NCBI GenBank assembly: GCA_021234155.1
Contig: JAJEKV010000003.1
Location: 14,244,386 to 14,308,385 of the forward strand
Length of the DNA: 64,000 nucleotides
Source of the DNA: Isoetes taiwanensis
Lineage: Eukaryota; Streptophyta; Lycopodiopsida; Isoetales; Isoetaceae
Reading direction: 5' to 3'
Part shown: in pieces, positions 31,458-57,710 of the stretch
Layout: each line of letters begins with the position of its first letter
How positions within the stretch are numbered: position 1 is the first letter of the stretch
Program-made: the position numbers and the translations under genes
The notes under the pieces: model-generated
Told to the model about the DNA's origin: nothing
Databases searched by the model: none
The model's input: the letters and a program-made list of their open reading frames with translations, nothing else

Positions 31458-31470
31458 TTCTCCGCTCCTT
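31458..31470 (-). other. Polypurine tract of the chromovirus
   Basis: On the minus strand AAGGAGCGGAGAA sits directly against the 3' LTR start TGTGACG. This is the expected second-strand priming site and ties the pol genes to this LTR pair. Confidence 0.85.
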
Positions 31471-33563: not shown

Positions 33564-33599
33564 ATCACGGAACTCTGGATCCGCAAAGTCTGCTCTATC

Positions 33600-35029: not shown

Positions 35030-35245
35030 TATTATGGAATACACTTTTGCTTTTCTAGAAAACAAACGTGTATTCCAGAATACACTTTGGATTTTTAGAG
35101 AAAGCAAAAGTGTATTCCGGAATACACTTTAGCTTTCCTAGCGTGTATTCCAGAATACACTTTGGATCTTCAAAGAAAGCAAAAGTGTATTCCGGAATAC
35201 ACTTTTGCTTTCCTGAGAAAGCAAACGTGTACACTGGAACACATC
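35030..35245. repeat. Left subterminal palindrome cluster (GTGTATTCCGGAATACAC)
   Basis: About five copies of GTGTATTCC(G/A)GAATACAC with spacer AAAGC.AAA / TTTTGCTTT, in a ~216-bp block starting ~500 bp from the left TIR. Such arrays are transposase-binding sites in hAT elements. The assignment by analogy is inference. Confidence 0.85.
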
Positions 35246-35299
35246 TTTGTTTTCTAAGAAATCATCGTGCATGGATTTTAGAAGTCGTGTGCAAAAAAT

Positions 35300-37490: not shown

Positions 37491-37499
37491 TCTTGAAAA

Positions 37500-37975
37500 C
37501 CAAATGCTATTCCGGAATACAAAGTGTATTCCAGAATAAGATTTCCTCTTTCTTTTAGAACCAATATCCTGTATCCCTGGTCCCCACAAAATAACAAAAA
37601 AAAAAAAAAAAAAAATTATTTATGCCACGATCCTGTATCCCCACAAAACAAAAGAAAAAAATCCCAAGGTTGTTGGTTTGTTTTTTCCTTTTGCCAATCC
37701 CTTCATTATTTAGAACTATGTTCATGTTCAATTGAAAAAAAAAATAAATTTTGCTAGGTCATTGAAATTTCGGAAAACCCAGAAAATAGCAAGATCATTG
37801 TTGAGTCTCAAAAACTTGTACAGAAGATGTGTATTCCGGAATACACTTGGGATTTTGAGCAAAACCAAAAGTGTATTCTGAAATACACTTTGACTTTCAA
37901 GAAAAGCAAAAGTGTATTCCGGAATACACGACTGTTATCCTCGAATAGTAAAAATGTATTCCAGAATACATTTTT
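37500..37975. repeat. Right subterminal palindrome cluster (GTGTATTCCGGAATACAC)
   Basis: Copies near 37508-37535, 37829-37846, 37870-37890, 37911-37930 and 37955-37972, with the same AAAGC.AAA spacers as the left cluster, in inverted overall order. A 20-nt A run lies at about 37597-37616. Confidence 0.85.
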
Positions 37976-38338
37976 GGTACTTTAGAATATTATATCATTA
38001 AAAAATGGCTCATAAAGTACGTTTTCTGGAATACAATCTAAGCTAACAAAATGTTGCATAGGATGTACACTTATATTAGTCGTTTTCGCAAAAAACACAC
38101 TTCAGGTAAATTCGAACTGTTAGGAAAAGTGTCACTTTGACATAGTTGATTTTCTCTTTGCACAAAAAAATGAGTGATTTTGGGGGGGTCAAAATGCATT
38201 TTTATGACAAAAATAAAAAGTTTAGCCCATTTTAGCTCTCTTTTTTTTTAAAAAAAAAAAGGGAATCTTCGAAGAATATTCCTTTTTGCTCTCGTTTCAA
38301 TGAAACTCTCCCGTTTCTATTGCAACTCTGTTATTAGT

Positions 38339-39289
38339 TAATCCAAAAGGCATAACGGTAAACTCATAATGCCCATATCTAGTGCGAAAAGCAGACTTAT
38401 GGATATCCTCCTCTTTAATTCGTATTTGGTGATATCCAGAGCATAAGCCAATCTTTGAGAAGTACCTGGCCCCTTGCAACTGGTCCATAAGATCGTCCGC
38501 TCTAGGCAAAGCATAGCGATTCTTGATCGTATGCTTGTTAAGTTGCCGATAGTCAATGCACATCCTGAGGGAGCCATCCTTCTTTTTAACAAAAAGGATA
38601 GGAGCGCCAAAAGGAGAAACACTAGGACGAATGAAACCTAGGTTTAGTAACTCCTGAAGTTGCTTCTTAAGCTCTGCCAATTCAGGGGGACTCATACGGT
38701 ACGGGGCCTTACTGGTAGGCTTTGTACCTGGCTCCAAAGCTATCTCACATTCTACCCCTCTGAATGGAGGAAGTTTCTGGATCTCGTCTGGAAAGAGATC
38801 GGTAAATTCCCTGAGAAGATTAGCAATGCTCTCTGGCAATGCATCAACTGCTTGCTTTTGTTTAGCACCTAACTCAATGGATGCAAGTCTGATAACGCAA
38901 AGTAGCTTATCCTTGCGTATAGCCTTATTTAACTGCCTGATGGACATAGACTGCATAATGGGATTTAAGGGATCACCTTTTATAGTCACGCGGGCTCCAT
39001 TAGCTGCGTTGAAGGTAACCTCCCGTTTTTCGCAGTCTATATTGGCTTTTGCAGATGCCAAGAATTCCATGCCAACAATCAGATCATACTTGCCAATATC
39101 CATTAACTCGGCACCCAATGCAACGGGTGCACCTGGCAGCTGCATTTTAAGGTTAATGCGACGGCCATGAGTATGTCTGATTTTACCACTGGCTAAAGTG
39201 ACAGGTTTCGGTCGGGACCTCAAAGTCTCAAGCTGCAATACCTGGGCCATTCTAGGAGAAGCAAAATTATGTGTACTTCCCGTATCCAT
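38339..39289 (-). pseudogene. Chromovirus protease and first part of RT
   Basis: The minus frame begins with the aspartic protease active site (DTGSTHNF) at about 39286 and continues through the protease fold ([10 protein letters not shown]). It then enters [59 protein letters not shown], ending at VMPFGLTN where the hAT-like element is inserted. RT continues at 34528. Order and motifs are standard for Ty3/gypsy pol. Confidence 0.92.
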
Positions 39290-39488
39290 TATGAAAGGCT
39301 TACTGTCTACTTGACCTATGGTGGAAATAACGGCAGGCTGACTTTCAGCGTTGCCGGTTTCTATGGCTGCAAGGATATGGGGCCTTGCCGTGAATATACT
39401 CGGAGCCTCCTCCTCGGCAGGGTGGTGTAGACTTCGAGATCATCCCAATCGAGGTCGGCCATGGCCACCAAGGGCGTCAGGTGACATA

Positions 39489-40696
39489 AGGGCAATTCTG
39501 CATGAAGTGCCCGAGCCGCATACACCTGTAACATGCCTTATCTCTGCGGAGCTGCTTTCGGGCCTCTTTGGGAATAGACTGTAAGAGGTTCCGAACTTCC
39601 TTACCGACATTGTTCGGTTTTGTCGGCATGTTGAAGGTGACTTTCTTTTCTGGCGGCCGTAAGAGTTCTCACCGAGGGGCCCCGACTTGGTGGCCGGGGC
39701 TTGTAAAGGTGTGTAATGGTGCTGGTGGGAATAAGAGGCAGGACGCTGGTATTGGTTTCTGGTGCGTCCTCCTCAAGGCTCAATGCCTTAGCCTTAGCTT
39801 CTGCAACTAATTTCGGGTCTATGGCCTTAACCATTCGTTTAATTGATGGGGCCAACCCTTCAATATAGCCCTCCACCGCCCTCTTCTCATTCATTCCTGG
39901 CACATACAGCCTCAAGCGCATGAATTCATCTGTGTAGGCCTGAATCGACATGCCTTTACGCTCCAATCGTAAAAGTTTGAATCTGTTGGCATTTGTGCGC
40001 ACGGGGCACATAATGCGACTTAAAAGCTTTGGCAAACTTTTTAAACTTGCATCTGCTTCTGTCCAGATGCTTGGCTCTAGCATAGCCCTTCCACCAAATA
40101 CGAGCGGCTCCTGTAAGGTTTGTGGTGGCAACTTTTCCTGTATCTTTCCCTGTCATGCCATAGGATTTCCCAACCTCCTTCATCTCGTCCAACCAGGACT
40201 CTGCATTCAGGCCGCCTCTAGATTTCCCATCAAACTGGGCCAATTTCCTGTTTTTCCATATACTAGTTATGGTCGTATTAACCATCTTACGGTACTCCTT
40301 GTCCCGGGCCTTTGCATGGTCACCAGACGATATCGATGACTCCGAAGACACAGAAGTGGCTGATTGCGAGGAGGTGGCACTATCTGTAGACGAGCTTCTA
40401 CGGCGTTTAGAACGGTGCCTCCTTTCTGCAGGTACAGGGCCTGGTTCCGGTGCAGGTGGCTGCTGTGGTGGTGGACTTGGCGGTAACGGAGGTAACTCCG
40501 GTCCGTTCTCCTGCATATACTGTGGAGGATTGGCATTCAACACATAAGCCTGCAGCTCCACTAACTGCCGCTTGATCAACATGAGTTCTTGCTCAGGTGT
40601 TAGCCTGGTAGCATTTGAAGGTGTCTGCCATGAGGCGTTGCGTGCACCGTCTATATTAACCATAAGAAGGTATAAGAAAAGATATTGTGGTACCAA
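39489..40696 (-). pseudogene. Chromovirus gag (capsid-nucleocapsid region)
   Basis: The N-terminal part is Pro-rich then Arg/Ser-rich (RRHRSKRRRSSSTDS), followed by a Retrotrans_gag-like region (KLAQFDGKS, ESWLDEMKEV, GAARIWWKGYARA; then MSIQAYTDEFMRLRLYVPGM and EGYIEGLAPSIKRMV). A CCHC zinc knuckle, CYRCMRLGHFMQNC, lies at 39489-39533. The region is broken in several places. The gag start is not certain (a Met at about 40661 begins MVNIDGARNAS). Confidence 0.88.
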
Positions 40697-41007
40697 GTGT
40701 CACAATGAAGATCATTTTGAGCAGAACTAGAAAAAAAAACGGTAAGGAGAATACAAGAGAATTAAGAAAAAGAACTTTATTTATTATAAAGTTGTGGTGA
40801 CAATTACATTGGAGGGGGTTTCAACAAAATTAAGTCCGTAGAATACAAAACTTAACGATTATACAAAACTTTGCCATGAAAAAGCCGTGCAGAACAGGGA
40901 TAGGTTCTGTACGTATGAAACTATTTTTTCAGACGTATAAAGTGCAAAAATACGTATTTTTGGGAAAAATACGTATTTTTTGTATTTAATACTCGCCGGC
41001 CGGAAAA

Positions 41008-41260
41008 AAAAAGTTTCGCGTAAGTGAAACCTTCTGTTTCGCTTACGCGAACTTTCTTTCGCGTAAGCGAAGTCTAAGTTATCGCTTACGCGAATCCCCT
41101 CGCCGGCTTTCGCGTAAGCGAAGCCTTAATGTTAAACTTTACGCTGAACTATTTTCGGCGAAGTATAAAAGGTTAAACACGCGAAACCTTTTTTGTTCAG
41201 CGTAAGCCATTCTTTCGTTTAAACTACGCGGGCGGGTTCAGCGTGGCCCGAAAGCGGGCG
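41008..41260. repeat. Left subterminal palindromes (TTCGCGTAAGCGAA)
   Basis: TTTCGCGTAAGTGAAA, TTTCGCTTACGCGAA, TTTCGCGTAAGCGAA (twice) and ATCGCTTACGCGAA occur within about 130 bp, followed by GTTAAACTTTACGC and CGTTTAAACT blocks. They mirror the block at 51.2-51.48 kb at the other end. Confidence 0.9.
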
Positions 41261-41327
41261 TTTTAAACTTACGAAGGTTTCTATATATATTTCGGTAGCG
41301 TTCGACGTTATTTCTGCGAGAACAAGG
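41164..41327 (+). promoter_or_regulatory. Putative plus-strand promoter and first-exon donor
   Basis: TATAAA at 41164-41169 lies directly after the palindromes, and AACAAG|GTAAAC at 41321-41332 looks like a first-exon splice donor. This would serve the kinase-like gene that begins about 1.3 kb further on. Inference from motif spacing only. Confidence 0.3.
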
Positions 41328-41329
41328 TA

Positions 41330-42660
41330 AACCACTGCGCCTGCTCCCACAACTGTGCCCCTTTGCCTTTTTTTTCATTTTCCCTTAGTTTTAGCCAAAC
41401 CTAGGTAGTTTTACTGTTGTTTTTAATTGTAGGTCTAGGGTTCCTCCATAGTGAGGCCCTTGCCCATTGCCCCCCTCCATTGAGGGTGGCGATGGCGGCG
41501 TCTCGACCTATGGTTGAATCCAGACTGATTTTTTTTAAGAAAAAAAAAAGAAAAGAAAATAAAATGCAATAGAAATAAAGGAAAAAAAATAATGAAATAG
41601 AAATAAAAATAAGAAAAAAAAAAAAAAATTTTGGTTGCCTACCCTTTCATCGACAACAATAGTAGTTAGGGTAGAGAGTGATCCTTGGCTAGGTTAGAAG
41701 TTGAGAGTGATCCTTGGTCTGAGGCAAAGGGACCCTTGCCTGGCGTGCCACATTTAATTGTGCCATGTCGATGGTGGGTGTCATTGCTGATGTTGAGGAT
41801 TGCTAGGGTCAACCTCCCATTTAGATGTATAGCCCTCTCCTGCCGCTTGTTGGCTTCCGGTCCTTGTGATTGCTAAAGGGTGGGTGTTGTACTCTTATGG
41901 AAGGTCGGTCGGAAGAATATTTAATGAGATATACCCTATTTTCTCGCGGTGTTGTTGACGAAAGTCCATCACTAATATAGGGAGTGGCGATATTTCATTA
42001 AATATTAGGGACTTCGATAGGTGGTCTTATGCAATATGTTGAGTTGAGTCTTTTGCCCAACCTCTGTGAGGGAGTTTCCCAATGGAGTCGATGGTCGGAT
42101 CAGATCATAAGTTAAACTTGTGGAAGAGAATGAGAAAAATGCATTGCATATAACCGGAGCCGTCAAACTCGGTAGATAAACTATAGAGTGCCTATAACCC
42201 TCAACTTGGGCCCGAGTAGTAGAGTGCCTAAAAAAGCGTCAAGCTTGAAACTTAGTAGTTTACTAAAATCTTAATGAACCATTTCAAGGCTTATTAACAT
42301 TCACTAAAGTCGGTTTTTTTTTCTCGGACTCTTAGGTGTTGATCTTTGCTTTGCTCTGATTTGGCATATCGCTATCTATACACAGTTTCTTCTAAAGTTG
42401 CTATGAATCCACAAGAGTTAGGCGGGCTTAGACTACAAGTAGCGAGCCTCACATGAGCCCTAGAGAAGGACCTAGGGTAGAAGCGAGCCCCACATCAATG
42501 TAGAGGTCGAGCCCTCTACTAAGATGCAAAGGAAAAGATCAAGACCCCAACAACCATGGTCCAACCTAAGACCTGCTTTAATGAATTGGCTTTGTGAGCG
42601 AATCTGTGCTGCCACCCCATCTGAGTTAGAGTTGATTACCACAACAGAAGAAGGATGGCT
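41330..42660. other. No gene seen; possible leader/intron region
   Basis: Mixed sequence with A-rich runs (41525-41620). No recognisable coding sequence before the kinase-like region. If the donor at 41327 is real this is an intron. Confidence 0.4.
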
Positions 42661-42680
42661 AGACTTCCCACTCGGGTCTC

Positions 42681-43908
42681 ATGCGAGATGCTGAAAGAGC
42701 TTTTGGGCCTCGAATGATAGACCTAGAACCTGAAAAGATTGATTCTGAAAGGTATGCTTGGATAGATGGCAATGTATCCCGTACAACTGGAAACATGATA
42801 CATGCAGTAGCAAATCTAACTAGTCCGCGCTTGAGAGAGTCTTTGAAAGATAAGGCTGTGGAATGGAACACAGCTTGGACCAATCGAAAGCTTAGAAAGG
42901 AAACCCATCAACCCCCCCACCTAGTTAAGAAAGTGTTGGCACAGACTATTAGAGCCAAGCGTCCTGGTGAAACTGATAAAGAGTGGGAAGCAAGAAAAAG
43001 GGCAGATGCCAAGACTATATGGTTTGCAATGGTGGATTACTCTCAAATAATCAACAAGACCAGAATTGGTTCAGGAACATATGGAACGGTATTCAAATGC
43101 AATATCCTGGGTTCTAGTTTTCTTAAAGGCGAACCCTATTGTGTTAAATTTCGAAATGATGGCGATGCGGTTAGGTACGGCCGGGCCGATGTGATAGTAA
43201 AGGCCATGATGAAAAACATGAGGGAATCACAAATGCGAGGTTAGACATGGGTCTATCATACTGTTGCATTGGTCGCATACAACCGGGTTGGTAAGAACGG
43301 GGTTGATATTTCCCCTACCGGAATGGGGGTTCTTGTGCATCTCTTTTTGTGAATCATGGAGATAATGACTTTGCCGGGCATGCATTTAAGAGACTAGGGT
43401 ATAAACCTCTTTGTCGAGGTCGACGTCCATAAGCTTGAGCAACGAAAAAAGCAAGAGTTATATGTTGCTCAAAGAGTGGGTGATCTAACTATGTCATTTT
43501 TAAGCGGCTTGCTTAAGCTTCATAAAGAGCACCATTTACACATGGACTTGCACCCTGGCAATGTCTTGCTTCATTTTGAATTTGGGAAAGAGAGAGGTTG
43601 CCACGGACCCCAGTGCATTTATATTGGTATATGTGGACTGGGGAGAAGAACGGTTAATAAGGCGAGCACATGGAAGTGAAGCGGTGGGCATACAAAAACA
43701 TGGATGCAGCTGCCAAAAGGCAATTGAGAATGAAAGGCTTGCCTATCCTTACATGCACGATGATTTGTATTGGGGTCCAAACAAAGATGGAACGAAGACA
43801 GTGAATGCAAAGGTAGACTTTGACCTCTTAGGGGCAGCCTACTTTATTTATTACCTTGCTGATTTTGCACGCAAAGCATTCTTTCTTGGAGACCATGGGT
43901 ACCAATGA
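42681..43908 (+). pseudogene. Protein-kinase-like gene, decayed
   Basis: A 187-codon frame starts at 42681 with a ~125-residue helical, charged N-terminal part, then RIGSGTYGTVFKC (Gly-rich loop, about 43062-43100) and PYCVKF (the expected Lys). After a damaged stretch the catalytic loop HMDLHPGNVLLHF is clear at about 43532-43572, and a metal-binding DWG (VYVDWGEERL, about 43628-43660) replaces DFG. The C-lobe trace DLLGAAYFIYYLADFARK follows. DLHPGN loops are seen in atypical kinases (ABC1/RIO-like, some viral and aminoglycoside-type kinases), so I only claim the superfamily. At least two frame changes (after 43244 and near 43600) make it a pseudogene as it stands. Confidence 0.72.
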
Positions 43909-43909
43909 A

Positions 43910-44920
43910 CAAACCCGGAGGTTTGAAACATGTCGCGATTATTTGAAGCAATGCGGGAATCCCCAATCTGAGACAAGGCACGCATAAGTTTGATCTGAAC
44001 CAGCCTCTTGAACACCATCGCGAGCACTTGGAATTGCTCTCCAACACATTGCACAAGACCCCAAACGGAATCAGTTGGATTCCTCAAGTTGGGTCGGTAG
44101 CGACGATCTTGACCAAAATTTGGACCAAGTCACGCTTAGCGTGCCATTTATGAACTCTCTTATGCGCAACCAAAAAAATATTGATTGAGCAATTGCGAAA
44201 AATACTCTAATAAAACATCTTTGGCATTGCTATGTTTATTTTTGTTGCACTTTTTATTTTTATAATTTGTAAGTCATATTGAGTTGTTGTTTATTTCCGC
44301 CAGATTAACGTAAAGCCTATTTGCTTGGAATACTATTGCACAACTTGTCTAGTGCCATGCCAAAAAGAATGTCTGAACAACCAACGAGTTAGTCTCGGTG
44401 GTAGGAGAAGATGTTGGTGAAACAGGACATGAGGGCGACTTGAGATGCCGTCCATTTTGAGAACTCGGGAGAAGGAGATGAGTTTGTATTCCCTTCCCTA
44501 CCTCTGATTAATCGGAGGTTAGGGCACAACATTCTGAAAGCGAGGAACATGCTAGGATGAATGAGTTGCGTCTTGAAAAGAGTTGTTGAGGTTGAGGGCA
44601 ATGGCGAGAGTGGCCAAGAAACAAGGTGTCACAATTCTGAGAGGTGCATGGAGTTGCATGTGACATGGGCCCGTGTGTTGCCCGCATGGAGCCGATTTTG
44701 ACGATATCGAGGCCAATTTAGGCGTAAGCGGTTTGACGACGACCGCCAAGCGAGGAAGCGGGTAAGTATAAGGCATATGACTGCAAGATCCCTGCAGTCC
44801 GAGGTAGAGCTTTGGAGAGGTGGGTGCAAGTGAAAGGAACAATGATAAAAAACCACGAATTCAGTAAGACATTTGCCAAGCAAGTGTACTATGAGATTGT
44901 GAGAGGGGAGGTCGTAAATT
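43910..44920. other. No gene recognised
   Basis: Short frames on both strands; none shows a domain. It may be decayed continuation of the kinase-like gene or an intron. Confidence 0.4.
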
Positions 44921-45760
44921 ATGCCCGTTAGAAAGTGGAAACAAGGAAGCGGCGAAGGTAGCGAAAAGAGAGTGAAGCTTGCGGAGGATTCTGAAAGCGC
45001 TCTTGGTGATGAGCCCGTGACTATAACTTATTTGCTTCAAGATGCCATAAAACTTTTAGAGGTAGCGTCGGTTGAAGCGGCGGTGTCAAATGGACGGATG
45101 AGGTAGATTTGAAGGCTCGGTTAGAGAATGAAAGAAGTCGAAACCTCACTTTGTCGAGGAAAAAAATGTGCGCTTAAAAGATCGTGCAAATGCTCATGAC
45201 AAGATGGCTGCGAAATTACTAGACACAAAGAATCAAACTTGCGACTTTGGGTAGGGAAAATACGGTGTTGAGAATAGACAATGACCATATCGCACAATAT
45301 CAAGAGTTTTAGATTCTGATCCCCTTAGAGTCTCCAAGGGCGGGGGGTATTTCATACCTCCCTCCGAATACCTATATGACCGGTCGGTGGGATGATGTAA
45401 AGAATGGAGACTTTAGATATTGTCAAGTATGTCGCGGAAAATCTGACCCAAGTTGGTTGGTATGCCTTAGGGTGTGGACATCGTGCGCATTTGAGATATT
45501 TGTTGGATTGGATGATGGGCGTGGGTTACATCCATCAAATGATGGATATATTATACCGGGCGCCCGTATGCAATGCTCAACATGCAATCACGCATGCCTC
45601 CCTTGCCAGCTATGGTTTGCTTTCGAGGAGGGATGGAATGCTTCATCGGTTCCAAACACAACGTGAAATGGACCTTTGGATGGGGGTAGAAGAACCGCGT
45701 GAAGGTGAAGAGGTACGGACATTAATCGGTACCTGCCCCCGCTCACAGGCCCAGCGGTGA
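44921..45760 (+). pseudogene. Coding-like region with RING-like Cys/His pattern
   Basis: Starts MPVRKWKQGSGEGSEKRVKL (basic, nuclear-signal-like), then a weak coiled-coil trace (45120-45310). At 45376-45500 it shows RYCQVCRGKSDPSWLVC in one frame and CGHRAHLRYLLDW in the next, followed by PVCNAQH. The order CxxC...CxHxxH...CxxC-like resembles a RING finger (ubiquitin ligase), but the last Cys pair is incomplete and the pieces are in two frames, so it is at best a decayed copy. It lies downstream of the kinase-like gene on the same strand and could have been part of the same cargo. Confidence 0.35.
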
Positions 45761-46361
45761 TAGTAGTGCGAATGTGGATCTGGGGCGATTACATTAACCC
45801 ATGAGCTACTCTACATTAATTTTTTTGATATTTTTCCACGAGATCTCGGATGCACATGAATGAACTAACGTTGGCGAGGATTTTTTTGTCTAAATAACAT
45901 TTTGGGGGTTGGGTTGCGGCGCATTGAGTTGTTTGTGTTGTAGTTAAGTAAAGTAAGTATGTTAGTGATTTTTGAACATCCTAATTAGGGACGGATGCCA
46001 ATTAGGATTAGTGGACTTCCTAACTTTCGAGACTTCCAACTTCGCTCACCACAGCTTAGTCTCTTTGAGACTTCTCGAGACTTCAACTCGCTCACCCTAG
46101 CTTAGTCTCTTTCGTTTTACTGTTTTGTGTATCTAATTTGCCCCTAGGATGACATCGCTCACTCGGTGGCGAATTAGATCATGCCAAGAGAAACTCGAAA
46201 AGGAGTAAGCCAAGGCGCAACCCTCTTGAATGGTTGTCAGGTCACCAGGCTTTATATTCTCCATGGCAAACAATATAGACTTCTCGAAATTCTTGTTACC
46301 TCCTTTAGAAGGAGCTTGCGATTCTGTGGGTTCATTAGATGTTAGTGATTGATGAGTTCAA

Positions 46362-46484
46362 GCATCGAGACTTCCCCGTTTTTCTTTCCCCCCGGCTCTT
46401 TGGGCAATGTAGCTTAGTTTACATGCTAAGTTCCATTGTCCAAAGACCCGGGGGAAAGCAAAGATTGGGGCGTCTCGATGCACA
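46362..46484. repeat. Foldback hairpin, copy 1
   Basis: GCATCGAGACTTCCCC...TCTTTGGGCAATGTAGCTTAG...CTAAG.TTCCATTGTCCAAAGA...GGGGCGTCTCGATGC: outer arms pair over about 55 nt with a short loop (TTTACATG). Confidence 0.85.
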
Positions 46485-46528
46485 GACCAGTCTTGAGTTA
46501 ATTGGATGTTAGTGACTGATGAGTTCAG

Positions 46529-46645
46529 GCATCGAGACTTCCCAATCTTTCTTTCCCCTCCTCTTTGGGCAATGCAGCTTAGTTTACATGCTAAGTTCCA
46601 TTGTTCAAAGAGGGGTGAAAGCAAGGTTTGGGAAGTCTCGATGCT
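46529..46645. repeat. Foldback hairpin, copy 2
   Basis: GCATCGAGACTTCCCAATC pairs with GTTTGGGAAGTCTCGATGC, with the same middle (CTCTTTGGGCAATG.AGCTTAG / CTAAG.TTCCATTGTTCAAAGAG). It is about 90% like copy 1 by eye. Confidence 0.88.
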
Positions 46646-47204
46646 TGTATTCAGGTCTCTTTCATCTGGCACAGGCGTGACTTTCTTGAATGGTTGTCAA
46701 CTCACCGGGCTTGATATTGTTAAGCTGCAAACAATATAGACTTCTCGAAATTCTTGTTACCTCCTCTAGAAAGAGCGGGCTTTGTTAAACTCTCTTGTGT
46801 AGTCTCTACTGTGTCAATGTAGCTTAGTCACTTTGCTAGGTTATATTACACAAAGAGGCTCACAATGGGAGTCGAACAAAAATCGTTCGTTCTAGAGATT
46901 GAACTTTCTATGGCGTCGGAGGTGAGGCGCACTCTAATTTCAAGCCAAAGTGGTGCACAGGTGTTGTCCATCTATATAGCGGTTGTTAGGCACCAAATCA
47001 TGGAACATCCTAACTCCTCGCTATTGATGGAGAACCTTGAGCATCACTATGACTTCAAATTAGAGTCTGCAGCGTCCCTTTGGCAAGGTGGTGGATTGTA
47101 GGTAACAAGGTTTTTGAGTACTCTATTTTTTGTTGTGGCAGCGGATGATATCAGCCTAGTGGTTGCTTAGCGATTACGTGGTTGCCACGCCCGATGGCAT
47201 GCCA

Positions 47205-47385
47205 AATCGCCATTTGGATGCCATCACGGACCTATAATTTGTACCTCCATTCCTTTGGGTGGCACATGCCATGCAAACCCATTTGGGTATTCGAGCATGT
47301 GCCACCCGGAGGAATAGAGTCTGAATTATAGGTCGAATAACATCAAAGCCCAATTTGGCATACCAAAGTTATTCCCGACTTGGGT
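47205..47385. repeat. Long imperfect hairpin, ~40-nt main arms
   Basis: GACCTATAATT...CCTTTGGGTGGCACATGC (47229-47269) pairs with GCATGTGCCACCCGGAGG...AATTATAGGTC (47294-47334). Outer segments ATGCCAAAT (about 47207) and ATTTGGCAT (about 47375) pair too. Loop about 24 nt. Looks like a MITE or an old inverted duplication; a small-RNA precursor is possible. Confidence 0.8.
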
Positions 47386-47667
47386 ACCGAAGTACCTTGT
47401 GAACCTTCCGATGGATCAGATTAAATCCGGGCTGGTCCGGGCTGTTTGGCCCCTTATTAACATGCGTGGATTACTTCTCATCGGCAAGATTAAAGGCGCA
47501 TGCGAAGAGGCAAGCAACAACGGAGGTCGAGGCGGGTCTGATCCAACGAAGGTTTTCAGGCAACGCTAGCGGTTACACATGAAAGAAACATAGAAAGAAC
47601 TATCATACATGAACCCGGTCTTTGGGGTAAGTTAGACATAAAATAAGATAGCTTCGATGATTGGACG

Positions 47668-47797
47668 AGTTCAAAAAGCGACACTTCCCTCTTTCTTTCC
47701 CGCCTCTTTGGGCAATGTAGCTTAGCTTGAATGCTAAGTTCCATTGTCCACAGAGGCGGGGTGAGCAAGATTGGGAAATTCTCGATGCTTTGACTTT
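47668..47797. repeat. Foldback hairpin, copy 3
   Basis: GCGACACTTCCCTC...CGCCTCTTTGGGCAATGTAGCTTAG / CTAAGTTCCATTGTCCACAGAGGCG...TTGGGAAATTCTCGATGC: same family as the copies at 46.36 and 46.53 kb, more diverged. A partial copy (CAATGTAGCTTAG...CAAAGAGGCTC) is visible at about 46815-46865. Confidence 0.8.
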
Positions 47798-48159
47798 GAT
47801 ATCCGGTGACCCATGCTTGCACTCACCTATCTAGTGGTTGGAGAGTGGATCGTGTATCTAGTGACATCTCGTATCCGTTAGAGTCGTATCGACTGACCCG
47901 GATCTAGGCACTTAGATCGACTTATATTACAAATGAATGAAACATGGACGGAAGTTACATGAACCATCATACAATACATGAAACAAACATCATACATGAA
48001 AGGAAAATTCCACAAGGTAACGAAATATATGGAAGACAAAAAACTTGTAACAAAAAACTTTACTTTTAATTCATAGTGCCAGGATGGTTACAATAGTTTT
48101 TGAACATCCTCATACACGATTACAATAGACAGACTGAGGGTAGTCATCACCTCCTCTCT

Positions 48160-50736
48160 CTAGACATCACCGTCTTCATCAATTTCATCATCTGCACTTC
48201 CGTCTTCTTCTGCCAGCTGGCCTAGGCTCAACCTCCTCTGGCCTTTTCCCTTACTGGAACGTCCTCGAGATGTGTTCTTTCTGACTCGTTGCCTGTTTGT
48301 CTGGGTCATTGGCATTGGAGAGTCCGATGGCTCGCGTACCATTAAGTCCTCAGGCTGATCTCTTGTATTACTTGGACCTGGCCTTTACGTATCGACTCCT
48401 CTTACGTATCTTATTTGTCGTCGGTTGTCCGAGAACATGTTCTTGTCTAAATCATCTTGGCATCGACAAAATGGGTACATTGAATGTCCTCGTCAACATG
48501 GTTAGCGGCATTTACAGCAAGCGGCTTCGTCCTCAACTTGTCTTGAAGTTGTCCTCTTCCACCGAATCTGCATCCATGAAAGGGCTACTGCGGCTTATCA
48601 ACTTCTGGCTGCACCAGCATTTGCGATTCAAGAGGCGCCCGGTTTGAGAAGTTATATACAAGTTTGTCGACCTTCTTATGCGGGGAGGCGATTTAGGGTG
48701 TCACACTATGTATATATTTATAAGCACTCCAGTTTCTCTCACTTGCACTATTGGAGGATACCAAGGAGAGGATAGTCATTCGCGAGGGCACATAGCGTGT
48801 CGATAACTTGTCCATGGGCTTGCCACCATGCATAAGATTCCATATTTGGTTCCTTCTTGTGACTCTCCGATTGCATCGTGAAGCTCTTCATCGCCCACCT
48901 TCCACTCAAGTTACGGTATTCGATTAACTTCGGCAATGAAAACTTTGTAGTCCGAAATTGTTGGGGTAAAACGTTTTTGCAACCTTCTTCAATGAACCCA
49001 TCACTTCTTTATCGTATGCTGGTCCATATCATGGTTGTGTGGGTCTAAGGCATGTCTTGGCGCCATGAAGATCATTATAGGACTTCTTCCATCGTTCATT
49101 AAAGTCTCTAAGCGGTCTTTGCTTGGCGCTTAGCATTGTCAAAGGGTGCATTAGGGCCATCGCGTTCTAGAAAGGATTGAATGGAGTGCCGGCACCTCCA
49201 CACCTTTCGATTGCTTGCCTTCGAAGAATCAAGGGTTTTGATGGCATGACAAACAGGTTGCATGCACTTGACAACATTCTTAACGCCTCTCCAAAATGTC
49301 TCCCGCCCAAGCATTTCGAAGAAGCGGCAGACTTCTTTGCCGGTGTTTTGAAGCATTTTTTCCCTTCTGCCTCCTCTCCCATTCAAAGAACTCTGTATGG
49401 TTGAAGGTCGAGATAATCGAGTCGCGACACCTGAGCACTCTTTCAAGACAAATGTAATTGGAACCAAACCGGGTCTGCCCAGGATTCATGAGTGCAAGGG
49501 CCTTCTGACGCAATGACTTGTATATGGCGTAAATTGCCGGCTTCTTTGTGATGAATTTCACGAGGCGGCGGGGCCTTTTGAATGGGATCTTTGAACCAAG
49601 CGTCTTTGTGAAAACCATCCTTCAAATAATAAGTTTAGGCAATGGCATTGGCAGCTGGTCGCGTGCAATCCTGGAAATTCGGACTCCAACATTTCACCCG
49701 CTAACTTACAATTAGATGCATTGTCCATTACGACCTGAAATATTCTCTTCGGTCCAAAACTCTCTATCACAGCCTTTGTCTTTTGAAAAATCCAATCTCC
49801 ACGTGACTTGGTCGGTTTTGGTTTCTCTGGTTTTCAAGAATACTTAGCCCCACGGATATCTGATCATGAAATTTATAAGATGGTCCTTATTTACATTGCT
49901 CCAACCATCGGTGACTAGAGAGGCTGGCCCGGCTTGATAACTTCGACTTAACCCGTTCCACCCTCTCGACCATTCTTCCATGAATTTCATCCACCATTTT
50001 GTTATTCGCATGTTTGTATGAAGGCAATCTAAAAAGTCAGGCCTGCTTTGGCAACTTCTGGAAGGCTTCTTTGATTGCTTTGTGCTCCAAAATATGTGGA
50101 GACAACCCGTATATAGAAAGGCCTCTACAACCTTCAATTCGTCTTCTTGGTTGCTCGATGTTAAGCCTTTGGTCAACCCTCATTTGCTTAGTCTGTCTTT
50201 CCACTAAGCTGAATTGTCTCGCCATTCTTTTTTCGCCCGTACTTAACCCACCTATCGACCCTAGTCCACCCTCTGGTTGGTACGTTGGCGCTCTGGCAGG
50301 AGGGGTGGTGTAATTGATCTCTTCTTCTTGGCATGGTGAAGGTTCTTGGCTATCCCTTGGCTGTGTTCTTACCTTCTATTATTTTTTCGACCCAACACTT
50401 CAAGTGCATCTTGTCGTATGTCGGCAGATCTGTACATGTTTGCACCCCAATTTTAGGATCCCGTAAAAGATGAGCTCGTATTCTTGTCGCGGATCCATTT
50501 ATTGACGTGTACCCACAAAATACACATTGCCACTCATTCTGACCAAATTCCTTCACAAATCCCCACTCAGGACCTCTCTTTCGACCACCGAGTTTCGACA
50601 TATAATTCTTCCACGTGCTGTTCCAACTCCCGTGGCCCTGCCATGACCGCGCAATGGTGCGCACCCTAGACGATGATGCATGACCGCCGGCGGCGAGATG
50701 TGGATGCATGGCGCGGCGGCTTTGATGTAGATGCAT
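48160..50736 (-). pseudogene. hAT transposase (BED zinc finger + DUF659 + hATC), decayed
   Basis: The minus strand, right to left: BED finger (WGFVKEFGQ, CVFCGYTS, ATRIRAHLL, 50460-50570); a linker; DUF659 with SLVTDGWSNVNKDHLINFM (about 49860-49920) and IFQVVMDNASNCKLAGEML (about 49690-49745), CQCHCLNLLFEG; then TRFGSNYICLERVL (about 49440-49480), a central ETFWRGVKNVV block (about 49270-49310), and a C-terminal YAWWQAHGQVIDTLCALAND (about 48780-48840) as the dimerisation hATC region, with an acidic tail at 48160-48342. Frames change at least four times, so it is inactive unless some joints are introns. It probably belongs to the 10.7-kb element. Confidence 0.85.
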
Positions 50737-51194
50737 GACCAGCCGGCATCCCCGCTGCTATCTAAAATTACTTGTCCCTGTTTTGTATGCTAAAGGGTAA
50801 AGACTCATTAATCGTCAAACTAAAGGCCGGCGTCTATATACGCCGAGGAGCAAGCTCACTGCGCATATGTTACATCGGCGTCCGGTTGAGCGTAAGGAGT
50901 GAAGGACAGGAACCTATAGGTCTCTAAGGAACAGGGTAGGAACCCAAGGTCGGAAAACTCTGTGAAGGAGGAATCTCACTTCACAATTCCGGCGTCAGGC
51001 CCCGGACGCAATAACCCACACCTCAAAGGCTGACCGTTTCCCAAAGAGTATGTGGACTCAACCTGGTAGTCAACGTTCGAGGCGAATTCTAGAGCTAAAC
51101 AAGTTTTCCTTATATATAATATTTCACCTGCACAAAATAGACCCAACAGTGGCGCAAAAAGTTTTTTTCCCTTAGCAAAAAGGCCCAAGATGCT

Positions 51195-51480
51195 TTGCAA
51201 AGTTTCGCGTAAGCGAAAACAACTGCTGTTAAACTGAAAAACATCTTGGCGTTTAAACAGCGGTTGTTTTAAACTGCCAACCGAAATAGTTTCGCGTAGC
51301 GAACATCGCTTTAAACTGCGAAGATGTTTTCGCTAAAGCGAAAACAAAGTTTATTTCGCTTCTGCGAAACTATTTCTGGTTCGCTGCGTGGCGAAAAATA
51401 CTATTTAAACTGTGCGAACCGGACTTCAGCGTAGTTTAAGCGGTTGTTTTTAAACTACCTGCGAAAAGTTTTCGACGCCG
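51195..51480. repeat. Right subterminal palindromes (TTTCGCGTAAGCGAAA and variants)
   Basis: TTTCGCGTAAGCGAAA at about 51203-51218, then TTTCGCGTAGCGAA, TTTTCGCTAAAGCGAAAA, TTTCGCTTCTGCGAAA and several GTTTAAAC/TTTAAACTG blocks. Same motif type as at 41.0-41.26 kb. Minus-strand transcription of the hAT gene would start from this side. Confidence 0.85.
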
Positions 51481-51602
51481 GAAATTTTTTTAGCCGTATT
51501 TTTGACGTATTAAACGTCAAATTTGTGCCGTATCAAACGAAAAATAATGTGCGTATAAAAGCATTATCTGATGTGAACCTATCCACAGTGCGATCAACGG
51601 GC

Positions 51603-52080
51603 CTAGGGCTCCGCGAAAGGGTACAGGATAGAGTAACGAATACTCTCCCGTACTGCTCTAAGTACCTTGTAGCGAGCCCATGCCTGGATAATGACCAACT
51701 GATAATCTAATGTGGGGCTGATGATGAGTAACTTGAAGAGATCTCTCAACGCGTAGAAAATCTGCCATAAATGGTTATTTGCATCAATAAAAGCCTTCTG
51801 CTTCGTCATCTGCCAGTAATTCCAAGTCCGTCAAAGAGTGTGTTCCAGATGCTCGAAAGCGCGCTCACGGAGAATGTTGACAATTTCGAAGCCCTTGATT
51901 GGGTCGTAGGCCTCTGCTTCCTCCATAAGCTCCTCTGCCACGTAATCGACATCCTCTGAATGCCACTCCGCATATTCTTGACCATAATCTTGGCCCGGAG
52001 GTATCTGATCTTCCCCTCGTAATTCCTCGGGTATTTCTTCATTCTCCTCAATTTCATCGTCTGCAAGACGGTAAGTATGA
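51603..52080 (-). pseudogene. Acidic coding-like region of the 5' block, family unknown
   Basis: Minus-strand sequence reads as an acidic start (ADDEIEENEEIPEELRGED), then a helical, aromatic-rich part (FIDANNHLWQIFYALRDLF, YQLVIIQAWARYKVL). Composition and length suggest real former coding sequence. It is the part of the 5' block nearest to gag and lies against the border of the 10.7-kb element. It belongs to a broken fossil and I recognise no family. Confidence 0.4.
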
Positions 52081-52256
52081 GTACATAACAGTTGAATTAT
52101 TCCTTATACGTCAAACTCTAAAAGAGGAAGACAAGTATTGTAGGAAAAAGACAATTTGCTTGTATTCAAAAGAAGATGCGCGAAGATCATCAGTGCAAAA
52201 TTACATATATTCAAGTAGCTCAAAGGCTATGCTCATACAATAGATACTATAAAAGG

Positions 52257-53752
52257 CTACGAACTAGTCCCGGCATCCCGGTCCATAGGCGTAGGAGGTG
52301 GTGGCGGGATCGATGACGTAACAAAGTCACCCCCAGGTCTACTTGTGGCGGTACCAATGGAGGCAACCTCTGGCGGATAGGCGGCAGCCAATGGGGCCGA
52401 CGTAAGGAGCTTCATACTCATCCATGGTGCAATATCCTGCCCTAATGCAGTGAGGGCAAGATTCCGTCGGACGAGTATGTAAGTAAGCGTGCGATAGGGA
52501 AGCTTCTTGTGCCCTGCCAATGTGGAAAGAGCACGGAGGTTCCACCATGACGCCTCGGCCTCTGGCCCTAAGTCCCGGGCTACAAAAAGGACCTGCCCCT
52601 GCCGAAAAGCTGATAGGAAGAAGCGGGTGAGGTGATTCCCTAACGCCTTCCCCTGCGGGGTCTCCGACATGGCGACCTCCTTATCTAGGTCCATAGGGAC
52701 TTCTTCTTCCTTGAGTTCCTCCTGTTCTTCCTTCAAATGAGCAGGGTTATGGTAAAGATCCTCTCCCTTCTCGTCCGAACCGGAGGGAACTTCGACCATA
52801 TTAATATTTGGAACATGAGGCCCCATAGTTGTAAAGGCATCCAGTGAAGGCTGGGATGGCGGATCCTGTAACACCAGTTCCCGAAGCCGTAACAGGTTGG
52901 CTCTATGGTCTCCTGATGAAATTGGAGTAGCTGCTGTACTTCCTGGGGAAGGTCAATAGGAGTAAAGTCAATGAAGTCATCCATACAGTACTCCGCTAAC
53001 TCATAGAGTACATGGTCCTTGCGTCGGCGCTTAAACCTAGCCACCATGTGATGAGTCCAGATGATATCATCCAAAAGAAGATACTCTTGCCCTTGGTGAT
53101 ACACAACTGGAAGGGCGTCCAGCCCGGACAAGCGTGCAGCTTGTTCCCGACGTGGTGGCATCTCCTCTGCCAACTGCTTCCAACGGACGAAGTCACCCAT
53201 GCCTATGTGCTCATCCTCTTCCTCATCGGAAGACTCGGGAAGTTTGCCTCTCTCTGCCGGCAACGTCTCATCCTCTTCCTCATCGGAAGACTCGGGAAGT
53301 TTGCCTCTCTCTGCCGGCAACGTCTCATCCTCAACATACTGATCCATGAGGATGGCTAGAGCGAAGGCAACTTCAAGATATTGTCGCCCCTGGTGCTGAA
53401 CAACTGGCGGCTGTTTACCCCATCTAAGTTTGCCTTTGAGCACATCATATGCGTGGGTGTCACCCCCAAGCATTTTTCGGACCACATCCCGTTCTAGGTA
53501 CAACTGGGGAGGTTCCCCAAAAGGAATACACAGAGGGAGCATCTCCTCTGTGTAAAACTGTAGGAATCCGGCATAATCTGGGTGCCGTTGCATGTTAGAG
53601 ATGAGGTCGAGGCGCTGGCGTAGAAAGGGCTGTAAAAGGTCAAAGGGCACCTGTGGATCCCAATGCTCTCCATCCTGGTACCATGCAAGTAGATTGATGG
53701 CGGCCATGGGCGTTGAAAGAGAGGAGGGAGGAAGATAAACAGATATGGACAA
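52257..53752 (-). pseudogene. ~500-residue coding region of unknown family in the chromovirus 5' block
   Basis: The first part (from about 53695, MAAINLLAWYQDGEHWDP) has an internal duplication of the pattern VVQHQGRQYLEVAFAL / VVYHQGQEYLLLDDI and a perfectly repeated 19-residue acidic unit (ETLPAERGKLPESSDEEED). The later part is acidic (KEEQEELKEEEVPMDLD), then helical and Trp-containing (RQGQVLFVARDLGPEAEASW), and ends in a Pro-rich tail (PPPPPTPMDRDAG). Nothing resembles gag, pol or a known accessory retroelement gene. The copy is broken, though long stretches remain open. Spacer sequence on both sides suggests a unit of its own. Confidence 0.6.
53211..53324 (-). repeat. Exact 57-bp (19-codon) tandem duplication
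   Basis: Two consecutive copies starting at 53211 and 53268 appear identical. Each encodes ETLPAERGKLPESSDEEED on the minus strand. Because it keeps the frame and has not diverged, the duplication is recent relative to the rest of the fossil. Confidence 0.92.
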
Positions 53753-53984
53753 ATGAAAATGAAACCCTAGAGATCCTTTTAACCCCTTTTTTTTTTAAAA
53801 AAAAGTGATTTATTTATGCTGACGTCAGCATTTTCATTCTCTCTTCTTTTCTTCTTTTTTTTTTTTTTTTTTTTTTATTACACCGAGAGGCGACTTATCT
53901 AGTCCATACATAACACAAGGACAAAATGTAGATTTCTATTTAATATAACAAAAATAGTTACAACGCAAACATTCCCAAAACCCA

Positions 53985-54766
53985 CTAAGGACGCTCTCCC
54001 CGAATCCTGCGGGCCAGGGCCAAATCCTTTGGCATTATAGTGACTCTCTTTGCGTGGATAGCGCAAAGATTTGCATCACCAAAAAGTGCCACCAAATAGG
54101 CTTCTGCAGCCACTTGAAGTGCTAGAATGGCAAAAGTCTGGAAGCGGAGGTCGGTTTTGAATTCTTGGGCTATCTCCCGAACCAACCTTTGAAAAGGCAG
54201 CTTCCGTATCAAAAGTTCCGTGGTCTTCTGGAACTTACGGATCTCCCGAAGGCCACGGTGCCGGGTCTGAACCGGTGGGGCTTCTTCAGTGGAGCAGGTT
54301 TGGGAGTCGGACCTCTTTGCGGTGGTATCGTCTTGCCCCCAATGACAGGATGGGGCCGAGAAGCATCCACGCGCTCCTGCCTCCGGCTGGAACTTGTGTT
54401 CTTCCCAATAGCTCCGACAACCTTCAACTTTTCCTTGTACTGGCTGCCGGACTTATGGGCTACAAATTTTCTCCGGCGTTTACTGGACGGTTTGTCCGCC
54501 TGGTTTGGCCCCTGCTCGGTCTCTTGTCCCCTATTACCCTGCTGGTCCTGGTGTTCCTGTCGGGCCTTTTCTTCGCTCTCCCGTTGGAGTCTTTCCTGTT
54601 CCTCCCGGAACTCACGGGCTCTATTGAGGTCGGCTTCAACCTCAGCGTACCGTCGTTCTACAATGCGGCGAAGGAGTTCAGCGTGGTATCGGTCGGGTCG
54701 CTGGCTCATATCAATCTGGACCGTCGTCAAATAATCCAGACTGATATCAGGAATCTCTCCCCACAT
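53985..54766 (-). pseudogene. Histone H3-like protein with long N-terminal extension, inside the chromovirus LTRs
   Basis: The minus strand encodes a Gln/Glu/Arg-rich, coiled-coil-like N-terminal part (EVEADLNRAREFREEQERLQ), a basic linker ([16 protein letters not shown]), then the H3 junction [12 protein letters not shown] and the histone fold: [65 protein letters not shown]. The fold is canonical H3-like: loop 1 is not lengthened as in plant CENH3. The usual H3 tail (ARTKQTARKSTGG) is absent and replaced by the long extension. The copy looks broken once or twice. Same strand as gag-pol, between 5' LTR and gag. Capture of a host H3 gene is the simplest reading. Confidence 0.85.
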
Positions 54767-54865
54767 GAAGCTCTGGGAAGCTTCATGCCACTCAAATGGG
54801 GGAAGCTCGATTGCCCTGCCATCAATGACGGCGTCTCCATCTCCTAAATACCTATACTCTCGACC

Positions 54866-55249
54866 TCAAGCCACCGTATTAGCTCGTTCCACCTCCCTGC
54901 GGTCATCCTCCCTGGCCTTGAAGTTCCGGATACGGTCAGCCTCTGTTCGTATGGCCTCCTCCGCATAGTGTTCCTCACATTCAGGAGGATAAAATTTAAT
55001 CATCATGACCAAATCAGGTTGCTCGGCCATGGTATAAGGAAACTGTCGGAGATTCAACTTAATCAAAAACTGCTCCGAGTAATGATATATTGGATAGGGT
55101 ATCCTAGCCTCGTCAGCAAATCGGAGTACCAGCTCATCCAGAAGTATATCAATCAAGGCACTGTCGGTAGCCATATGTTGTGCGATTAAGGCATAAATCT
55201 GGGCTATGGTGAGGGCAGCGGGGTCCATGGTACTCTTGGTGGTGGCCAT
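54866..55249 (-). pseudogene. 127-codon region upstream of the H3-like part, family unknown
   Basis: Reads MATTKSTMDPAALTIAQIYA at the start, then mixed helical sequence, ending EEAIRTEADRIRNFKAREDD. The end resembles the charged stretch that opens the H3-like protein next door (YHAELLRRIVERRYAEVEAD), and both lie in the same register, so the two may be a domain duplication within one former gene. Family unknown. Part of the broken 5' block. Confidence 0.5.
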
Positions 55250-55865
55250 AACTATGGCGCTGGGGTCTAGGGCGGCAGGAAGTGAGGCGCTTGCGATTAG
55301 GAAGACGATAGGGGAGGCGCTAGGGGTAGAGGAGGCGGTAGAGAAAAAACAAGATGGAAGAGCAGGGTCGGGTCTGGTAGCTATGGCGGACGTCAGACCT
55401 AGCGGGCGGAGGCGCTGTAAAACAGGGGAGGAGTAAAAAAAATTAACGGCCGCCTAACCTTTAAATTTTAAAAATTTTCTTGTTAATTTTTTTTTTTAAA
55501 TATTTATACGACGGAAATACGTGCGATTATACGGTCGGGCGCCGACGGCATTATAAGCGGCTTCGGGGCCCCTCCTTGACCCTTTTCCGCCTGATGATGA
55601 CCCTCCTAGGGTATTTGGGGTATGCCCGATACATTGGAACCACTTTCACCTTCATCTGAACTACCCACAAAAAGTTATGGTCCCCTCAAACTTGGGTCCT
55701 CCAGTCGCCCTAAACTTCTTAAGACTTACTAATGTATTACATCAACCTAGCACAAAACCAAACATCAAAGAGTTAAACATCCCCACTAATTTAAACTCCC
55801 ACCTAACTACCGAACTAACGAGTTAGGGTTTGGTCAGTGCTATGATTTCAGGCAACTAAAATCAC
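55250..55865 (-). other. Leader between chromovirus primer site and the 5' block
   Basis: No coding sequence recognised. At 55490-55560 a TACGACGGAAATACGTGCG / TTATACGGTCGGGCGCC stretch resembles in style the ATACG-rich borders of the 10.7-kb element (40.9 and 51.5 kb). It could mark another element border, in which case the H3 block would be a separate insertion. Confidence 0.4.
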
Positions 55866-55878
55866 GGCTCTGATATCA
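55866..55878 (-). other. Primer-binding site of the chromovirus
   Basis: On the minus strand TGATATCAGAGCC lies one base inside the 5' LTR end and is one base off the initiator-Met-type primer site TGGTATCAGAGCC. It fixes the element's orientation as minus. Confidence 0.85.
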
Positions 55879-55879
55879 C

Positions 55880-57460
55880 TGTGACGCTCCCAGAATATAT
55901 ACAACGCTCGGGCGTATATATACGGGGACTTTCCCCTGCCATGGCAACCATCTCGCCATGAGCAGGGCCCTCCGTCTAACTCGGGCCATCTGTGGAAAGA
56001 TGCTCGAGTGAAGGACACAGAGGGGTCATTCGGCCCACGCCTTCAATGGGGATCCTATGTCGCGGAAGCGTGAATACAAGGTTAGCATACAGCATAATCA
56101 TATCATAAATACCACCACAAAGGGTGGCATAATCATATCATAAATACCACCCCAAACCCATGGTTCTACCCCGGCTCAGACTCCAGTGAGGATCGACTGA
56201 CGGCTAGGTCTCAAGAGATCAGCAGACCAAATCTTGGCATGGTGTTGGCTGGCATAGAACATCGGCTAGGGTTGTCCACTCCATCCGCCCCTCCTGTACA
56301 CACTTTGCAGATGAGTCGAATCATGCTATGGCATCACTATAGCCTTCCGGAGACGCAGACTCATGGTATCACCCTTCGAGCCTACTCCAGGTTTCATGAA
56401 GACCTGTCCGATGAGGCAGGTCGGGGAAGCGTCCCCTTCTAGGATCACAACGGTTCCATGGGTGAGCTAGAGAATACGCGTGCGCATCGGCGACCCGTGA
56501 TCCGTGCAGACTTACTCCCCTAAATCTATACAAAGTGCAGGGGTGCCCCATCACGGGTCACACCTCTGCACCCGTGGAGTGTCGACCCATACCCGCCCCA
56601 CGTGGCCAGGCTATCGCCTAGCCCACCTCATCAGGGAGTCCCGGGGAGCCTTGTATGTTAGTGCAAGACTCCACCCCCACTTCACCACCTGCGTCCCTTC
56701 TCCTCGGGTGCTAAGCAATTCCATCCATCCACAACTGGTCTCTTGTGCACAGTGCCGCAACTAATGGGAATAATCTGAGGGGGCTCTATCTAGGAGCATA
56801 CTACAATACATGGGCTCGGAGGTCTCTACCCCCCCTTAATCCCTTTCACGGAAGTCGACAGAGATACTTTCATAGATTCATATCCTTACTAACAAAACAT
56901 AATCCATAATTGAAATGTAATTCTAAATATCAAAGAAGGGCTAATCCTAACAAAGATAACCAGAGAAGACTAACTGAGTCACTATCCTAGAAGCTCAAGC
57001 TAGACTACCCACTAACCCGAGTTTCTGCTAGAACCGTTATCATTGGGCACCTCCATCTTTCAAAGAACTTGGGTGTTCAAAGAATGGTTTTCAAAGAACT
57101 TGGGTCTTCAAAGAATGACTTCATGAACTTGGGTGTTCAAAGAACAAATTGAAAGAACTTGGGCCAAATGCTCCTCCTCTGCTCGATTTGGGGTCAAATG
57201 GGATAGGGACCCAATTTGATGCCCCAAGTTAGCATTACCCTGCTGGCCAATCGAGTTTGGCCATGTGGCACCTTCCTAATTAATCATTTATCCTAATTAA
57301 GTCAATTAGATATTAATTCCTTAATAATTAATTTAGCATAGCTAAATTAATCCCTTTTAGGTCAACCCCCTAGGTTAAAATATCCCATGGTGGCGTACCT
57401 TTACTGGGTGACGTGTCAGTATGTTTATACGTATACCGTATAAATACTTGGAACGTCACA
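55880..57460 (-). repeat. 5' LTR (right) of the chromovirus
   Basis: Ends TGTGACGCTCCC...GGAACGTCACA, so the outer 7 bp (TGTGACG/CGTCACA) form the short inverted terminal repeat of the LTR. Aligns to 29869-31457 along its whole length. Many differences between the two LTRs are 1-5-nt gaps, concentrated in the GC-rich first half. ~30-bp AACTTGGGTGTTCAAAGAA units occur at 57065-57160. Confidence 0.9.
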
Positions 57461-57465
57461 TCTTC

Positions 57466-57710
57466 CTACATTGATGATGAGCCTAGCCTTGATCTACAGC
57501 ATTTTCCTTAGCTCTTGCTTGATCATATCATTAGGAGGAGTTCCTGTAACACCAGTGGTTGGTAGCTTGTTCTTATACAGTCTTGCGGAGTAGCTTGACT
57601 TGGTGGCATTTCTTCTAGTTGGTCCGGTTGGGTGGTAAATCGAGTACGCTATGGTGTTTTACTTTCTAATAAGTTGATGAATTTGCAGGAAGAATAGAGC
57701 ATTCGTAACA
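57466..57710 (+). repeat. Right LTR of the TRIM/LARD-like element, last part
   Basis: CTACATTGATGATGAGCCTA to GAGCATTCGTAACA matches 21311-21560 closely; a ~10-bp gap (GGTGGCTAGAAAGAGC vs GGTAGC) is the main difference. It is followed by the GATCG duplication at 57711-57715. Confidence 0.88.

Follow-up and report, generated by a model that had tools for sequence, protein, structure and literature searches.

Whether a plant LTR retrotransposon can carry a histone gene of its own is the question raised by ORF1. This reading frame, which ends in an H3 fold, is situated after the 5' LTR and ahead of gag, all on the minus strand, in the single long LTR element (57460 to 29869) of the window, by which is meant the whole 64-kb stretch of DNA analysed here. 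An H3 fold on the gag-pol strand in just this position had been proposed in the initial annotation and is borne out by the motifs at 53985-54286 and by a match to Pfam Histone (PF00125; E 1.4e-35; score 122.6 bits, cut-off 26.4). The gene is unusual and real and lies inside a real element, and it is broken in the present copy. The reading preferred here, held tentatively, is that of a captured H3 fusion borne by the element, in other words an extra gene between the primer binding site and gag of a chromovirus.

That the enclosing element is a chromovirus (a chromodomain Ty3/gypsy element), present as an old and decayed copy, follows from the Pfam identification of protease, reverse transcriptase, RNase H and integrase in that order on one strand, with a chromodomain at the C-terminus of the integrase; the chromodomain had also been named, correctly, in the initial annotation (PF00385, 5.4e-08). 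Its boundaries are likewise marked by paired TG..CA LTRs, a primer binding site, a polypurine tract and a target-site duplication (Table 1). The primer binding site is one change away from TGGTATCAGAGC, which we take to be of the initiator-tRNA-Met type. The candidate duplication is the 5-bp GAAGA standing directly outside both LTRs (57461-57465 on the side of the 5' LTR, 29864-29868 on that of the 3' LTR), a low-complexity sequence that is weak when taken alone and that adjoins an altered 3' LTR end. For gag, the Pfam scores (Retrotrans_gag 8.5e-05 and 1.6e-04, Ty3_capsid 6.1e-05) are all below the curated cut-offs, an rve match in the integrase region (2.5e-06) is below the Pfam cut-off, and the piece with integrase and chromodomain lies in a different frame from that with reverse transcriptase and RNase H. 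Named sequences among the best 120 of 7365 protein matches to the integrase come from a fern, Adiantum nelumboides (up to 49%), from an organism with the entry prefix PITA, presumably loblolly pine, and from flowering plants, for example Tanacetum; at most, this hints at a host outside the flowering plants. The decay of the copy is evident from its broken H3 gene, the several frames of gag and the interrupted reverse transcriptase and, since all three are damaged, any function must belong to the ancestor. A repeat at 21301-21560 and 57461-57710 (93% alike) immediately adjoins the 5' LTR on its outer side, such that the element may itself sit in another repeated sequence.

Table 1. Features of the element, given as positions in the window
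Feature	Position	Strand	Details
5' LTR	55880-57460	minus	1581 bp, TGTGACG...CGTCACA; self-comparison, ends read in sequence
Primer binding site	55867-55878	minus	TGATATCAGAGC, follows 5' LTR
Leader	55250-55866	minus	putative TATA-like TATAAATA at 55501-55508, CT-rich stretch before ATG, by eye
ORF1, whole (N-part and H3)	55249-53985	minus	ATG 55249, ~620 nt after primer binding site
ORF1 N-part	54287-55249	minus	321 codons; novel sequence, predicted long helix, KRRRK basic stretch
H3 fold, K36 to stop	53985-54286	minus	translation, Pfam, structure-sequence match; frameshift near 54251
3' flank of H3	53855-53984	minus	108 nt, then uninterrupted run of 22 A
ORF2	52260-53707	minus	two overlapping frames, 53707-52736 and 52874-52260
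Possible further exon or ORF	51831-52060	minus	after putative CTTGCAG acceptor-like site, by eye
Nested hAT-like transposon	40896-51590		~10.7 kb; GGATAGGTTC at both ends, CGCTTACGCGAA-type palindromic repeats inside both ends
gag	39443-40663	minus	several frames; ATG at 40663
Protease and first part of reverse transcriptase	38300-39439	minus	Pfam RVP_2 2.5e-10, RVT_1 9.7e-13
Insertion interrupting reverse transcriptase	34565-38332		ends approximate; homology stops ~38333, resumes ~34530-34564
Second part of reverse transcriptase and RNase H	33581-34564	minus	Pfam RVT_1 5e-16, RT_RNaseH 1.2e-33
Integrase and chromodomain	31968-33611	minus	Pfam Integrase_H2C2 8.3e-20, Chromo (PF00385) 5.4e-08
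Polypurine tract	31458-31470	minus	AAGGAGCGGAGAA, precedes 3' LTR
3' LTR	29869-31457	minus	self-comparison, ends read in sequence

The 13 kb between gag and the H3 block are mostly accounted for by the hAT-like transposon that sits between them, at whose ends no exact target duplication was seen and in which a DUF659 match (0.027) is below the Pfam cut-off. On its plus strand, at 42663-43241, there is an open frame with a kinase-like IGSGTYGTVF motif by eye and no Pfam kinase match. The insertion in the reverse transcriptase has palindromic repeats at 35018-35264 and 37806-37987. Elsewhere in the window are transposase remains at 6350-7233 (DDE_Tnp_4 7.1e-12 in the frame 6763-7233), which we take to be of the PIF/Harbinger type, and, at 2138-2659 on the minus strand, a reverse transcriptase fragment (RVT_1 1e-12) that is LINE-like by eye.

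As judged from its sequence, the match of the histone part to H3 is beyond doubt. The fold aligns without gaps to plant H3.3, with identity at 75 of 88 residues, and the best match of the region among solved structures is an H3.3 chain (E 6.5e-44); membership of the H3 histone fold is thereby given by sequence, the structure model being of low confidence. Twelve residues, R63, K64, L65, R83, F84, C110, H113, R116, V117, T118, D123 and L126, are unchanged in the translation. These we take to be the essential DNA-contact and H3-H3' positions, such that pairing of the ancestral H3 part with H4 is plausible. The tail, described in the initial annotation as missing, is indeed absent as far as about V35, although K36 and K37 remain. 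Identity with CENH3 was rejected, since no gap is needed to align the fold with canonical H3 across 88 residues; an H3 fold behind a long divergent N-terminal part is a likeness to CENH3, but the longer loop 1 that CENH3 has is absent. Nor is this a canonical H3.1 or H3.3, with a full tail and the signatures at positions 31, 41, 87 and 90, as there is no tail before K36, and the residues F41, F87 and L90 fit neither the F, S and A of plant H3.1 nor the Y, H and L of plant H3.3 at positions 41, 87 and 90, as set out in the available text of PMC4357034. With these three residues the fold appears to resemble the plant H3-like class, whose members, according to the same text, similarly have an absent or degenerate N-terminus and residues off both consensus sets while keeping K36. 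They differ in being host genes with no long novel N-part described there, and the string 'transpos' occurs 0 times in that text (PMC4357034).

The extension in front of the fold, put at about 120 residues in the initial annotation, does exist but is longer, continuing in the same frame up to the ATG at 55249 for a total of ~320 codons. From this N-part the ORF1 frame runs straight into H3 at K36 and holds its first 12 residues, after which the sequence from LREIRK to the stop at 53985 is in another frame; the sole stop before H3 is an in-frame TGA at 54866-54868. The present copy, with one in-frame TGA and one frameshift, cannot make the fusion of N-part and H3. In other words, the earlier description of the two as fused holds for the ancestor but not for the present copy, in which the frameshift near 54251 splits H3 itself. 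Compared alone with solved structures, the ORF1 frame aligns weakly at its end to H3 residues 27-49 (best H3 E 0.069), behind an unrelated structure (0.039).

Across the 336 codons between 54240 and 55249, a single stop interrupts the ORF1 frame. In 5000 Markov sequences simulated to match, the mean was 14.9 stops and none had fewer than 3, and the other five frames contain 14, 27, 8, 15 and 2. The frame with 2 stops is antisense and is also rather open across the N-part, so that openness alone is imperfect evidence of coding and the point counts somewhat against an element gene. The case for a coding past is nonetheless strengthened by the fact that the open frame leads directly into H3, and such a past is likely for ORF1 and likely, indeed well supported, for the joined ORF1-H3 gene. 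It is conceivable that the joined frames never gave rise to a protein, the locus being a defunct piece of H3 next to an open frame unconnected with it, as the present separation of the frames and the near-equal openness of the antisense frame would allow, but this is very improbable in view of the 1 stop against a mean of 14.9, the direct passage into the first 12 H3 residues and the 0 stops in the 88 codons of the H3 part.

A search of proteins with the N-part (its TGA read as W) gave 3364 candidates, none with E <= 0.001, within the reach of a method that finds only relatives sharing exact 5-residue words and having 0.55-1.75 times its length; nor was a relative of the N-part found in viral contigs or prokaryote genome contigs. 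Against the viral contigs, ORF2 and the integrase alignment likewise gave no relative, and the H3 fold gave one locus at 35%. ORF1 and ORF2 each occur once within the window, and a single copy has been seen. In an AlphaFold model of ORF1 a helix is predicted at 187-240, only part of it confident, from one sequence without relatives, the models made in this way having low mean confidences of 44.8 and 44.5; the long helix of the N-part is, on this model, likely a coiled coil. A CENP-Q match on the helix (E 0.058, below the Pfam cut-off) was taken as chance.

The single copy, and the absence of a relative of the N-part from the protein, viral and prokaryote collections, weigh against a gene belonging to the element. 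The close rival of element-borne capture is that a host H3-like variant with a long novel N-terminus, perhaps together with the neighbouring ORF2, was picked up by, or inserted into, the space between the LTRs of this copy alone, as a one-off passenger with no role in the element; this is possible, and the lack of an element relative of the N-part in the protein search is in its favour, but the same search found no host gene with the ORF1 N-terminus either. In ORF2, Pfam finds no known domain, and a perfect 57-bp tandem duplication at 53210-53323 yields a repeated acidic peptide. Putative TATA-like and CT-rich sequences stand upstream of both ORF1 and ORF2 by eye and, with the acceptor-like site after ORF2, would suit self-standing genes brought in from the host. 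In base composition by codon position, the ORF1 N-part, H3 and ORF2 are alike, which supports the element-borne reading; against this, GC1 is 0.56-0.65 in ORF1 and ORF2 versus 0.50-0.54 in gag-pol, a slight difference that could mean foreign origin, as a passenger would have. The upstream sequences, the acceptor-like site and the composition are compatible with a gene of the element as well as with a passenger from the host. Further in favour of a passenger, plants possess H3-like genes whose N-terminus is degenerate and whose residues at 31, 41, 87 and 90 are unusual, as described in the available text of PMC4357034. Against a passenger, ORF1 is on the same strand as gag-pol and starts ~620 nt past the primer binding site, and in 51500-55900 there are neither paired inverted repeats of at least 14 nt nor direct repeats resembling LTRs. 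For the element-borne reading, moreover, the LTR ends, primer binding site, polypurine tract and GAAGA on both sides bound one element with gag-pol on the same strand, and the 1 stop in 336 codons is joined to the first 12 H3 residues in the ORF1 frame.

A different possibility concerns the time at which the H3 part arrived. The only other A/T runs of at least 15 between 29 and 58 kb (20 at 37596, 15 at 41614) are both within nested insertions, and the run of 22 A after H3 therefore favours the view that the H3 part began as a retrocopy. This run fits early and late capture alike and leaves the odds between the readings unchanged; it also fits a processed host transcript that was dropped in, which is a point against element-borne capture. 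If the capture was late, a 5'-truncated, polyadenylated H3 retrocopy would have landed after integration at the 3' end of an element ORF with which it had no connection, the in-frame join being due to chance, which is 1 in 3. The lack of an intron, the truncation near residue 35, the 22 A at 108 nt past the stop and the confinement of other long runs to the two nested insertions are what such an event would leave. It is nevertheless improbable, as no direct repeat of 14 nt or more, T-rich matches aside, flanks the H3 block, and the changes within H3 are numerous.

In this regard, 13 of the 88 residues of the fold depart from plant H3.3, which requires at least 18 replacement changes, where decay from a canonical donor at half the LTR divergence would on average produce 10.8 (P(>=18) = 0.023). 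If residues that differ are counted instead, plain decay suffices (P(>=13) = 0.23), a figure in favour of late insertion and against the element-borne reading. Six residues, Y54, S86, V89, E94, E105 and T107, are all changed here and are invariant in 64 distinct H3 folds taken from the best 120 of 4568 protein matches. These matches come from a search with a long length window, and the best 120, which hold 239 ungapped H3 folds of 63-75/88 identity, are dominated by H3 models with several copies or fused parts, behind which fusions with a single H3 domain would go unnoticed.

The clock used in these estimates is itself distrusted. The LTRs are 90% alike over the 1295 aligned columns of the longest block in the self-comparison, and have a K2P of 0.112 over 1523 aligned positions with many short gaps, for which pol is too intact: its three open pieces, of 1256 codons, have 0 stops versus 7.8 expected at half the LTR divergence, although, having been chosen for being open, they are a yardstick biased to few stops, and pol also holds a frameshift and an insertion. 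The decay rate taken from LTR divergence may thus be too high, in which case the true decay would probably be lower and the excess of changes in H3 larger. The LTR divergence and the stop-free pol pieces (31968-39439) disagree on the age of the copy, and recombination between copies is possible. The replacements in H3 are, moreover, milder than random (P 0.05 against plant H3.3, which is borderline, and 0.01 against chain 1p3b). Since the changes exceed the expectation from decay, probably either the divergence of H3 preceded the decay of the copy or the donor was an H3-like variant from the outset. The excess of replacements, the few pol stops and the mildness of the changes support the element-borne reading, against which the pre-selected openness of the pol pieces has to be set.

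Under element-borne capture, a host H3 transcript or gene would have lost its 5' end, and the truncated H3 would have been joined in frame to a gene of the element, there to evolve under loose constraint. The product would have been a fusion directed to the nucleus by KRRRK and comprising the novel N-part, the long helix, the basic stretch and an H3 without a tail before K36. With its core contacts kept, the fold could pair with host H4, and the fusion might then enter nucleosomes on the DNA of the element or on nearby chromatin. Lacking K4, K9 and K27, such nucleosomes would make this DNA hard to mark for silencing, while the N-part would bring in functions of the element. In other words, the protein may have acted beside the chromodomain as a histone decoy or tether, sparing the DNA of the element from silencing. 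The interpretation in the initial annotation, that an element with both a chromodomain and a tail-less H3 could package or mark its DNA or interfere with silencing by the host, is partly supported: the chromodomain, the position of the H3 block inside the LTRs in sense with gag-pol and its likely coding past bear it out, while the roles in packaging, marking and silencing are conjectural. The wider proposition, that a lineage of plant chromoviruses has an H3 of its own, tail-less and fused to a part specific to the element, and builds nucleosomes unable to carry the H3K4, K9 or K27 marks, so as to choose sites or escape silencing in concert with the chromodomain, is at present rather unlikely.

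There is some precedent for the capture of host domains by such elements. The giant Gypsy elements of Phalaenopsis carry an AlkBH5-type 2-ODD domain that is a working RNA demethylase and is proposed to act against host control; as here, they are Ty3/gypsy elements with an extra ORF that has a host-derived domain at its C-terminus, but they differ in belonging to the Tat/Ogre lineage, in forming a many-copy family, in having a measured enzyme activity and in encoding a demethylase rather than a histone, as reported in the available part of PMC9289625. When 121 angiosperm genomes were screened there, the n5 filter left 15 extra domains; of the nine named in that part of the paper none is a histone, and the word 'histone' occurs twice in its text, neither time for such a domain (PMC9289625). 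Histones are carried by integrated or nuclear viruses, as in the case of the bracovirus H4 and the nudivirus Orf1, the latter being like ORF1 in that its first two thirds are without homology and its histone part is C-terminal. These are, however, insect DNA viruses, and their histones are H4 or an H4-H3 doublet at 30-40% identity; in the review that describes them, 'retrovir' occurs 0 times and 'transpos' 2 times (PMC9145170). No LTR element with a histone gene was found among the papers listed by literature searches, made in a body of work without most subscription papers or bioRxiv.

It is already known that host domains are at times acquired by LTR elements and seem there to influence the control exerted by the host, and that DNA viruses have acquired histones. 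A retrotransposon with its own tail-less H3 would, if real, unite the capture of domains by elements with the capture of histones by viruses, and such an element could alter the very histone on which its chromodomain and the silencing marks of the host depend. It would thus offer a direct test of whether elements resist silencing via nucleosomes that cannot be marked. Were the gene only a passenger, it would still provide a clear example of an H3 fusion gene trapped within a pair of LTRs.
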